Positions 25,944 through 34,297 of a DNA stretch of 45,044 nt are shown piece after piece. Source of the stretch: Spirochaetales bacterium (GTDB lineage: Bacteria; Spirochaetota; JAAYUW01). Within the stretch, counting starts at the first letter, position 1, and each line of letters opens with the position of its first letter. The notes beneath the pieces were generated by a model that was not told the origin of the DNA, made no database searches, and was given only the letters and a program-made list of their open reading frames with translations. The DNA lies in the NCBI GenBank assembly GCA_012797605.1, contig JAAZOT010000021.1, forward strand, positions 1 to 45,044. The letters are read 5' to 3'. The translations under genes were made by a program, and so were the position numbers.

Positions 25944-27278
25944 TCATAGGCTATCAATATTTTGCATAATAATATATTTTTCCTCAAGGTTCAATCCTAA
26001 ATATTTGATTATATCTTTTCTAGTAACTATACCAATGATATTATCATCTTCTAAAATAGGTAAATGCCCTATATTATATTTTTGAAAAAGTAATTCAATA
26101 GATTCTATTGTCATATCTTTGGTTCCAGTAATTACCTTTTTATGCATATAAGCACTTACTGGTGAATTCATTTGATTTATTTTTCTTGCTTTCATTATGT
26201 CTCTTAATGAAATAAAACCGACTAGTTTTCCACTTTCATCAACTACAGGTGCTCCTGTATAATTTATAAATTCTAAGTAGATTGATGCTTCTTTTACAGT
26301 CCAATTCTCTTTTATCATATATACATTTTTAGTCATAATATCATAAGCTTTTTTAGCAAATTCAATTTTTTCTTCGATATCTTTTTTAAATGATAAAAAA
26401 ATTCTTTTTATATCATCATTTTCAATCTTAGCTGAACCTGCAAAAATATGACCGCCACCACCATATCTATATAAAATATTATTTATATTAATCTCTTCTT
26501 TTTTACTTCTTGCTATAATTAAACCTTTTTTATTTTTTAAAAAATAGAAGAATGCAAAATAAGCATCTGGGTTTTCTATCTCAAAAACTTTTTCTACTAT
26601 TCCTGAAAGACCTGGGAATTGTTCATCAAGTTCAATGTATGAAAGAGTTATATAATGCCCTTTAATAGTTTTATAGATTAGATTATTCAATATATTATGA
26701 AATAATGATATCTGTCCTTCATGGTTTATTAATTTTATTTTCCTCGTTGCAACTTTAATGTCTGCACCATTTTTAATTAAATAGTGTGCAGCTTCAAAAT
26801 CTAAATCTTTTGTGCTAGCATGAGTAAAATTCCCAGTATCAGCATAGATTCCAGTTAAAGCAATAGTTGCATCGATCGGATTTATCTTAATATTATTCTT
26901 AATCAAAATAGAAGCTATTAGTGAAGTGTTTGCTCCAGTTTCTTCAGAAATCAACTTCGCACTTTCAATGTCAAAGCTATCTGCTATATGATGATCCCAA
27001 ACTTCAACTTCTAAAGATGAATTCAAAAGATGTATATATTCATTGATTCTTGCTTTTGTTCTAGTGTCGACTATAACTAGTTTATCTATTTTTTGGTCAG
27101 ATATTTCATTTTGAGTCTTTAGGCTCAAAAAATCAGCATAAAGAGAATATAGATTTTTTGCAACAGGATGGATGAGAGTACTTTTTATTAATATAGCCTC
27201 TGGATATATATATCTCATCAAAACCATTGAACCTAGGCAATCATTATCTGTATTTGAATGACCAATTACTGCAATCAT
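25944..27278 (-). CDS. DHH/DHHA1 phosphoesterase fused to a CBS-domain pair
   Basis: At 444 aa: an N-terminal DHH domain with metal-binding sets GHSNTDNDCLGS, VIVDTRTKA, VWDHH and GIYADTGNFTHAS; a DHHA1 part with YGGGGHIFAGSAKI; then two CBS motifs (about 315-435; TGAPVVDESGKLVGFISLRD and GHLPILEDDNIIGIVTRKD). This is the arrangement of the front half of the long DHH-CBS-nucleotidyltransferase proteins related to CCA-adding enzymes, but the protein ends after the CBS pair with no nucleotidyltransferase. It may act as a nanoRNase-like or nucleotide phosphoesterase controlled by adenine nucleotides at the CBS pair. No clear ribosome-binding site. Confidence 0.88.
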   Translation of the reverse strand: MIAVIGHSNTDNDCLGSMVLMRYIYPEAILIKSTLIHPVAKNLYSLYADFLSLKTQNEISDQKIDKLVIVDTRTKARINEYIHLLNSSLEVEVWDHHIADSFDIESAKLISEETGANTSLIASILIKNNIKINPIDATIALTGIYADTGNFTHASTKDLDFEAAHYLIKNGADIKVATRKIKLINHEGQISLFHNILNNLIYKTIKGHYITLSYIELDEQFPGLSGIVEKVFEIENPDAYFAFFYFLKNKKGLIIARSKKEEININNILYRYGGGGHIFAGSAKIENDDIKRIFLSFKKDIEEKIEFAKKAYDIMTKNVYMIKENWTVKEASIYLEFINYTGAPVVDESGKLVGFISLRDIMKARKINQMNSPVSAYMHKKVITGTKDMTIESIELLFQKYNIGHLPILEDDNIIGIVTRKDIIKYLGLNLEEKYIIMQNIDSL

Positions 27279-29995: not shown

Positions 29996-31177
29996 CTAGC
30001 TGTATAACAAATCATATAATTCTGGATATCTAATTTTTACCTCTTGTTTTGGTTTATAAAGTCTATGTATTGAATGTGGATAAATAACTTCTTTATTTAC
30101 CGTCGAAAGATAATAGTGTGGTTCTTTGAAATTTGGTTTAGTGGTCCAAGTATATTTTGAATTCAGATCAAAATAAACCGATGCTACTTTAATATTTTTA
30201 TGATTTAAGTTTCTTCTAAGTCCCTCTTTCAACTTGTCCACAACTGGATTCACATAAATACCTGCTTTAAAAGTTGTATCTATGATCAGAATCTTACTTG
30301 TATCCTCAACTCTTTCTAAAAGGTACGGTAGACCAATTATATTACTCTTATATGAGAGATGCGAAGAAGATGTGTTTATGGCAACATGATCTGGATTTTT
30401 CTTTGGGTTTCCATTTATCTTATTTAAATACTTATATGTTTCATGAATATAAATACCTGAAATAACACCACCAGGCCATAGAGCAATCAAAAAGTCTGGT
30501 TCGAAATCAGAGTAAAATACATTTACACCTAGTTTTATTGAATCTATCTGTATTTTTTCTGGTGTTAACCATAGATAATCTTCAGGAATATCTAAGTTTT
30601 CAACAGGAAAAGATTTTTTAGATAATAAATCAAATATATCTGGATAATTTTCTTTAAGTACACTATTTTTATTATCTATTAAAAGATCTGATATTTCATG
30701 TGGATAATTTACCCAACAATCTTTATCATAGTCATTTAAATAAATTAAATTTGTTTTGTATATATTTTTTTCTGGTTTTCTATCTAAAGTTGCAACATAA
30801 ATTTGGTGGGGCATGTTTTTTCTTGTTTGATGCTGTAATAGTGTAAGTAGATGTGATATAGTTTCACCAGTGTCGTAAATATCGTCAATTATCAAAAGAA
30901 TATCTTCTGGGACAACGACCTTAATCACATGCTCTAAACCTTTTACTATTACTTCTTTTTGTGTAAAGTTTTCCCCATAAGTAGAAGTAGTTATGGCTGT
31001 ATGATTTATAAAAATTCCTTGAAGTCTAAAATATTCATTTATCCCAATCCCAACAATAGTCCCACCTCTCCAAAGAGAAATCGCATGATTTGGTCTGATA
31101 TTTAAATCATAAAGTTTTTTACCGAGTAAAAATGATTCATACATTATTTGTTGGGCTGATTTAAATACAAAATTCAT
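29996..31177 (-). CDS. Tandem phosphoribosyltransferase, second domain degenerate
   Basis: At 393 aa, two phosphoribosyltransferase-like halves can be aligned by eye. First: SLWRGGTIVGIGINEYF (34-50), PRPP loop LLIIDDIYDTGETI (94-107), WVNYPHE (155-161) and YPDIFDLL (178-185). Second: ALWPGGVISGIYIHETY (232-248), degenerate loop ILIIDTTFKAGIYV (296-309), IYPHSIH (365-371) and YPELYDLL (384-391). The first keeps the acidic pair and D-T-G that bind PRPP; the second has lost them. The base substrate is unknown, possibly a purine. It is the only gene on its strand here, converging tightly on the U32 gene. Confidence 0.85.
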   Translation of the reverse strand: MNFVFKSAQQIMYESFLLGKKLYDLNIRPNHAISLWRGGTIVGIGINEYFRLQGIFINHTAITTSTYGENFTQKEVIVKGLEHVIKVVVPEDILLIIDDIYDTGETISHLLTLLQHQTRKNMPHQIYVATLDRKPEKNIYKTNLIYLNDYDKDCWVNYPHEISDLLIDNKNSVLKENYPDIFDLLSKKSFPVENLDIPEDYLWLTPEKIQIDSIKLGVNVFYSDFEPDFLIALWPGGVISGIYIHETYKYLNKINGNPKKNPDHVAINTSSSHLSYKSNIIGLPYLLERVEDTSKILIIDTTFKAGIYVNPVVDKLKEGLRRNLNHKNIKVASVYFDLNSKYTWTTKPNFKEPHYYLSTVNKEVIYPHSIHRLYKPKQEVKIRYPELYDLLYS

Positions 31178-32482: not shown

Positions 32483-34297
32483 ATGACAGCAAAACTACCC
32501 TCTTCTAATGTTAAAGAAAAGAAATTGAATAAACCTTCAAAAACAAAGAAAAAAGAAAAGAGAAATATTACTGAATTTAAAACTAAAATTAGAAGAGTCA
32601 AAAATGCTTTAGGCGAAAGAAACTTAAATAGAACTTTCTGGAAAAAGATAGATGAAATATTAAAAGAAAAAGATGTTAATGCAGAAGAAAGTTCTTTTGC
32701 TGATTTTGAAAAATTGCTGATTAATCAAGCATATAAAATAGCAAAAAGAGCAGACTATTTTTCTTATTTTATAAATATTATTTTAGGCTTAGCGATATAT
32801 TTTATTTTTTATTTAATTTTTCAAAATAAAGAATTTTTCAAAAATATTTTTTCAAATTTTGAATTTAATAAACCAGATATTATATTCATCCTATTCTTAA
32901 TTAATGGTGTTATTTTTAATCTATCACAGATAAGAATTTCATCCTACGAAATTTTTTCTCTTGATTATTCTTTAATGATTCCTATCACGATGATTTATGG
33001 TCCAATTTATTCAGTTTTAACTTTTTCTTTTATTTACATTATAAGAGTAATAAGAGATTCAAGAAGAGGTTATATTGCTAGAGGGAGAATTTATAGATTT
33101 GAAAATTTTATATCAAGTTTATCTTATTATTTTTCAAGCATTGGTTCTGTCGGAGCAGAAATACTATTAATATCATTCGCTTCATCTTTATTTAATTTGT
33201 CTGTTATAGAATTCAATTTGGGATTTTTAGCATTCCTTGTTGCTCTATTTATTTTAGGTCCGTTAGTTCATGATTTAATGGCACTAATAGGAATTTGTTC
33301 TCGTGGTACATATATAGGCCATATTATCAATCTTACATTTCTTGCTTCTAAAGGCGTAGATGCAATTATATTATTAAATGGTTATTTATATTTTGTTGTT
33401 GTCAAAACATTTGGTTATTTTGGATTTGGATTTTATACTGCCATATTATATGGAGTTTTAATAGCATTTATAAGACTTTCAAAAGTAAATGAAATCGTTC
33501 AGAAACAAAAAGAAGAAATTGAAAATGAAAAAAAATTACTATCAAAATTAAATTCTGATATGAATAAAGCTGCTACGATATTACAAGAGAAAACGAAAGA
33601 CAACCTTGATATCACTAAAGTCATAAGCATACAAGCAGAAAATGTCGGTCAGCAATTTTTAAATGTTAAAGATAAACTTTCTAGTTTAATTTCCTATCTA
33701 TCTGCAGTAACAAAAGGATTTAATGATATAACTAAAAAGACTGAAGAAACTACATTAAAAATCGAACAATCTAAAGAGATAATTTCAAAATCATCCAATA
33801 TGTTAAAAGAGTTTAGAGATTCAACCGAAGTCGTTGAAGAATCTTTAACTTTGATCACGGAAATTTCAGAGCAAACTAACCTTTTAGCATTAAATGCATC
33901 TATTGAAGCAGCAAGAGCAAAAGAAAGTGGTAAAGGCTTCGCTGTTGTTGCAGGGGAGATCAGAAAACTTGCTGAAAAAACCACAGAATCAACAGATAAA
34001 ATATATTCTGTAATTACAGCAAATTATAAAATAGCAGATAGACTAAAAAAAGTATTTGATGAACTTTCATTATTGTTTTTAAACTATCAAAATGATATAA
34101 AATCTATAAAAGATGATATTCAAAAATTGAATACTAAATATAATGAAATAAATACTTCTATTTTAGGCATTGGAAATTCGATAGATGATTCTGTTACAAC
34201 ATTAAACATATTTAACAACATCTCCAACGAAATCGCTGTCATCACAGATGAGTTGAATTCACTTAATTCTGAATTAAAAACAAACCTAAATAAATAG
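32483..34297 (+). CDS. Methyl-accepting chemotaxis protein with a polytopic membrane sensor
   Basis: At 604 aa: a Lys-rich cytoplasmic N-terminus (1-90), then about six or seven hydrophobic segments between 92 and 330 with little periplasmic sequence, no HAMP that I can recognise, then a coiled-coil signalling domain with tip [30 protein letters not shown]. The signalling part is canonical. The membrane part (for example [19 protein letters not shown]) resembles in layout the polytopic MASE/5TMR-type sensors but I cannot name it. It is ten bases downstream of metK, almost certainly co-transcribed. Confidence 0.88.

Follow-up and report, generated by a model that had tools for sequence, protein, structure and literature searches.

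The window analysed here is the whole stretch of 45,044 nucleotides from contig JAAZOT010000021.1 of a Spirochaetales bacterium that branches deeply among the spirochaetes. On its minus strand it carries one gene for a tandem phosphoribosyltransferase (PRTase)-fold protein, which reads from ATG through 393 residues without internal stop. The gene is divergent from metK, the two being 138 bp apart; metK also flanks the tandem gene in two other genomes, G001 and G003. Directly after metK lies a plus-strand gene (32483–34297) for a 604-residue protein with a C-terminal MCP signalling domain, and a homologue of this protein is also found after metK in G003. On the other side of the tandem gene, with a U32 peptidase gene in between, the minus strand encodes a 444-residue DHH-DHHA1 protein with two CBS domains (25944–27278). 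It is possibly a regulated pyrophosphatase or phosphoesterase, located near a PRTase that would produce PPi. The features of the tandem gene are collected in Table 1.

Table 1. Positions in the window of the tandem gene, its two halves and their active-site motifs or motif counterparts
Feature	Position	Strand	Basis
Tandem PRTase-fold gene, 393 aa	29996..31177	-	ORF from ATG to stop; orthologues of similar length in nine other genomes
Half 1 (residues ~1–187), PRTase domain with intact active-site motifs	30617..31177	-	PF00156 and TIGR01203 matches below cut-off; structure match to HGXPRT
Half 2 (residues ~204–393), PRTase-fold pseudo-domain	29999..30568	-	Half 2 modelled by itself matches PRTases in structure
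Half 1 PPi loop, W36-R37-G38-G39	31061..31072	-	Family-invariant
Half 1 PRPP loop, LIIDDIYDTGET (residues 95–106)	30860..30895	-	D98, D99, D102 and T106 family-invariant
Half 1 Lys134, at the purine-binding position	30776..30778	-	Invariant in the family and in single-domain relatives
Half 1 base-side motif, W155-VNYPHE	30695..30715	-	Aligned with 4z1o and 1vdm by profile
Half 2 segment matching the PPi loop, W-P-G-G, which lacks the Arg	30467..30478	-	P or K in 9 of 9 relatives compared
Half 2 segment matching the PRPP loop, LIIDTTFKAGIY, dead	30254..30289	-	D99 to T301 invariant; D102 and T106 positions variable
Half 2 VIYPHSIH, which matches WVNYPHEIS minus the Trp	30065..30088	-	Alignments

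The initial annotation had ascribed the protein to internal duplication, and comparison of the two halves, split near residue 189, bears this out. Their Smith-Waterman alignment spans them from end to end and scores 163; when half 2 was shuffled 2,000 times, the scores averaged 35 (s.d. 6) and never exceeded 71. Family profiles made for each half from ten orthologues can be aligned across 179 columns, at an hhalign probability of 99.6% and an E of 6e-24 for this single comparison. The 393-residue protein is the product of an internal duplication. An assembly artefact or a frameshifted fusion of two genes was ruled out, since the gene is one open frame in ten genomes and the tandem layout recurs in the nine other than that of the window.

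The AlphaFold2 model of the whole protein (pLDDT 89, pTM 0.90, from a 21-row alignment) contains two confident domains, with the strand/helix order of PRTases present twice. Its best PDB matches are the Sulfolobus HGXPRT and the Pyrococcus purine PRTase. When folded alone, half 2 gave a pLDDT of 84 and a pTM of 0.84, with low confidence at residues 78–83, and the top matches were those of the whole model. The PRTase fold of half 2, on which the earlier reading had been staked beforehand, was upheld: the model of half 2 alone matches Sulfolobus HGXPRT with a Foldseek E of 3e-9 and a probability of 1.00. The target-normalised TM-scores are moderate, roughly 0.6–0.75. In the predicted structures, both halves possess the α/β core of type I PRTases.

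Half 1 retains a full set of active-site motifs. Its PRPP loop, LLIIDDIYDTGET, is kept, as had been claimed from the sequence; it follows the 13-residue PRPP motif of type I PRTases (hhhhDD-x-h-D/A-T/S-G-x-T), and half 1 appears competent for PRTase activity. Across 9–10 relatives, R37-G38-G39, Y67, D98-D99, D102, T106, K134, W155 and P159-H160-E161 of half 1 are invariant within the family; in G004, the loop glycine is replaced by Ser. Both hallmarks of 6-oxopurine PRTases, the purine-contacting Lys and the C-terminal aromatic/YP motif, are present. The base-side motif reads W155-x-x-Y/F-P-H-E across the family and was aligned with W-I-x-F-P, its equivalent in archaeal purine PRTases; W155, H160 and E161 are invariant in the single-domain relatives as well. 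The roles of these residues, including the purine contact of Lys134, are presumably those that they have in HGPRTs in general.

At the spot matching the PRPP loop, half 2 reads LIIDTTFKAGIYV, and the binding residues are gone, in agreement with the initial annotation. The loss is wider than was seen at first, and also takes in the equivalents of Arg37, Lys134 and Trp155. In nine relatives, the R37 position of half 2 is occupied by P or K and that of D99 by T, the D102, T106 and K134 positions are variable, and W155 is deleted. The counterparts of D98-D99 are mostly D followed by T; the change of D99 to T is fixed in 10 of 10 proteins, so the loss appears to be older than the divergence of the two spirochaete groups. 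Of the features of active type I PRTases, half 2 retains neither the PRPP motif, nor the PPi-loop residue, nor the Lys and the aromatic residue that bind the base. Base binding of the ordinary kind, one of the functions first proposed for half 2, is unlikely because the equivalents of Lys134 and Trp155 are lost.

The two halves are conserved to a similar degree. To the closest relative, half 2 has a dN of 0.042 versus 0.057 for half 1 (dS is saturated and ratios are rough), mean pairwise identity is 56% versus 59%, and 48 versus 52 positions are invariant. Judged by this conservation, half 2 is a maintained pseudo-domain and not a product of decay. A decaying remnant is ruled out by the similar constraint, with G045 as the exception; in this genome (L011, 1489–2589), half 2 is truncated and fast-evolving, and the C-terminal ~25 residues are missing. 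Half 2 may be dispensable in G045, where a second stage of loss is possible. Being dead yet conserved, half 2 in general probably supports or controls the live half 1. Since half 2 is under strong purifying selection and has acquired invariant residues of its own, it could also be alive and catalyse a different reaction at a re-tooled site. This is very improbable, as the residues of the Mg-PRPP and 5′-phosphate loops are unconserved and no new catalytic or metal site was recognised.

On balance, we think it probable that the protein is a PRTase of the purine-salvage type, in which a catalytic N-terminal domain is joined to a C-terminal pseudo-enzyme partner that arose by internal duplication. 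From the motifs and the predicted folds, we infer that half 1 would most likely use PRPP to phosphoribosylate hypoxanthine, guanine and/or xanthine. Half 2, which appears to keep the fold without the residues for Mg-PRPP or usual purine binding, would most likely be a partner subunit in cis, stabilising half 1 as a 'prozyme' or as one side of a pseudo-dimer built into the chain; possibly, it also tunes half 1 through its remodelled site.

Nine invariant polar residues of half 2 (N268, S272, S275, K277, S278, N310, R322, H354 and H371) are absent from half 1, and several of them, within the N268–N310 group, are aligned with the old active-site loops. They could line a remodelled pocket through which another ligand (a nucleotide, ppGpp or a base) turns half 1 on or off; half 2 would then be an allosteric sensor. 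One structural relative, 5vog, was solved with ppGpp bound, and the allosteric site of PRPP synthetase, the tandem known best, lies at a chain interface (PMC6332680). However, positions 304, 308 and 337, the counterparts of phosphate-loop and purine-contact positions, vary and have not been re-conserved; the proposed ligand is purely hypothetical, and the invariant residues of half 2 may equally face half 1. We regard the sensor as unlikely, and as equally unlikely the more specific reading that the fused dead twin is a cis-acting pseudo-PRTase, dedicated to allosteric control by a purine nucleotide or an alarmone. An allosteric pseudo-domain layout for salvage PRTases was not described in the literature searched.

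Under the preferred reading, a salvage enzyme with a pseudo-enzyme partner, half 1 would work like an HGXPRT; it is not filed as one because it scores under the curated cut-offs. Its match to PF00156 is below the cut-off, and its match to the HGPRTase model TIGR01203 has an E of 1e-6 and 28.7 bits, compared to a cut-off of 150. Among the NCBIfam models, none passed its cut-off for the tandem protein, and half 1 scores far below any named PRTase. By profile, the other PRTase-family genes in the window's genome are those of APRT, UPRT, OPRT, PRPP synthetase, PurF and ComF. The same APRT/UPRT set was recognised by eye in three relatives of its class, and OPRT was seen in G001 and G003. The window's genome contains two near-identical APRT genes near separate contig ends (L082 and L083, on contigs C94 and C39), which are probably a strain variant or an assembly duplicate.

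TIGR01203 matched above its cut-off in only one (G073) of 13 genomes searched, nine of them holders of the tandem protein (G038 was left out), and the absence of HGPRT from the others rests on draft MAGs that are 84–97% complete. In G073, an ordinary HGPRTase and the tandem protein occur together. Given the HGXPRT-like fold, the motifs and the absence of other HGPRTs, half 1 appears to be the lineage's best candidate for the salvage of 6-oxopurines (hypoxanthine, guanine or xanthine).

The tandem protein might instead be a regulator that works by attenuation or repression, as do the PRTase-fold proteins PyrR and PurR. In pseudomonads, pyrR lies beside ruvX, and in five of the six tandem-holding genomes of a second spirochaete order (L075, L076, L077, L078 and L080), a ruvX/yqgF-type gene stands directly before the tandem gene; we counted both in favour of a regulator. 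The two genes overlap by 4–14 bp in four genomes and are separated by a short gap in one; the upstream RuvX was confirmed by Pfam in two genomes and assigned by eye in the others. In G045, the upstream gene resembles dnaN. The ruvX/yqgF linkage suggests co-expression in the second order. Against a regulator, half 1 has the full catalytic motif set together with the W-x-x-Y/F-P-H-E base motif, no gene of a pyrimidine or purine operon was noticed adjoining, and no Rfam element near the tandem gene scored above the gathering threshold. PyrR and PurR were absent from the NCBIfam matches at E up to 1, and identity with either is ruled out for want of a family match. Overall, we consider a regulatory protein improbable.

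The two-domain protein is present in 10 spirochaete genomes, comprising four of four in the window's class and six of nine in the second order; in whole-genome searches, the orthologues are 40–90% identical. For tandem members beyond the spirochaetes, one genome-wide scan with a single protein returned only two close relatives, in records titled Exilispira sp. and Brachyspira murdochii. Record DYJT01000008.1 (L002), titled Brachyspira murdochii, contains a 90%-identical orthologue, and its title is likely wrong. Among 393 spirochaete genomes searched, 217 further ones match the family profile without having the tandem protein; among the matches listed with coordinates, the fit is to half 1, mostly in single-domain frames of ~200 residues. 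Each tandem holder gave one family-profile match, with no separate single-domain match at E ≤ 1e-5.

These single-domain spirochaete PRTases share the motif residues and are homologous to the whole of half 1 (hhalign E 5e-26), but they are only ~200 residues in size, have no second half and occur in genomes without the tandem protein. Judged from a gene ~100 kb along the main contig, they probably include Borrelia BB0103, which is annotated as gpt (PMC2764106). In a tree of the halves, which is unrooted and has long branches, the half 2 sequences group in a single clade (100/99), support for half 1 is weak (69/68), and the spirochaete single-domain proteins make up a clade of their own. One 183-residue single-domain PRTase with an intact motif, WP_347092881.1 from a Sphingomonas plasmid, serves as a stand-in for the state before duplication. 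Its identity is 36% with half 1 and 28% with half 2, and this match to both halves is a separate line of evidence for the descent of half 2 from a PRTase. This gene was the sole match in the plasmid search, the phage search gave no match to the tandem protein, and virus contigs matched half 1 alone. A phage or plasmid origin is ruled out, as there is no phage match and the virus and plasmid matches are single-half or single-domain.

The best profile match of half 1, and the best fold match of both halves, are archaeal single-domain purine PRTases, namely the Sulfolobus solfataricus HGXPRT GpT-2 (4z1o, 4zfn, 5bqo and 5bqp) and the Pyrococcus horikoshii protein 1vdm. They share the PRPP loop DD-x-x-D-T/S-G and the W-x-x-F/Y-P motif with the tandem protein. 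Different from the tandem protein, which adds a second, inactive copy, the archaeal enzymes have one domain of 150–180 residues. Identity with PRPP synthetase is ruled out; no ribose-phosphate diphosphokinase model, ribP_PPkin included, matches the tandem protein, and the same genome has a separate PRPP synthetase. Compared to the tandem protein, the order in PRPP synthetase is reversed, its C-terminal domain holding the ribose-phosphate loop. The architecture had been called unfamiliar, which stands insofar as the protein is no PRPP synthetase; however, a chain of two type I PRTases does have a precedent in that enzyme, which contains two such folds in one chain, related by pseudo-twofold symmetry (PMC6332680).

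Like the tandem protein, the PRPS pseudoenzymes (PRPSAP) and the inactive APRT2 paralogues of yeast and trypanosomes place an inactive PRTase-fold copy beside an active one. These are separate chains in trans, whereas the copy in the tandem protein is fused in cis. PRPS pseudoenzymes have been proposed to regulate active PRPS (PMC13252144); the APRT2 of T. brucei keeps its PRPP motif, and prozymes have been discussed for APRT2 (PMC8836349). No description of a fused active/inactive pair of purine PRTases was found in the literature searched, which covered few subscription papers. The fused pair is a modest variant of the known PRTase family.

Taken together, the tandem protein is a clear natural example of a pseudoenzyme domain that has been kept in cis, in two spirochaete groups, with its intact twin as the internal control. 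It shows that a chain of two PRTases can arise by a route other than that of PRPP synthetase, and it may close a gap in purine salvage in a lineage that yielded no ordinary HGPRTase.
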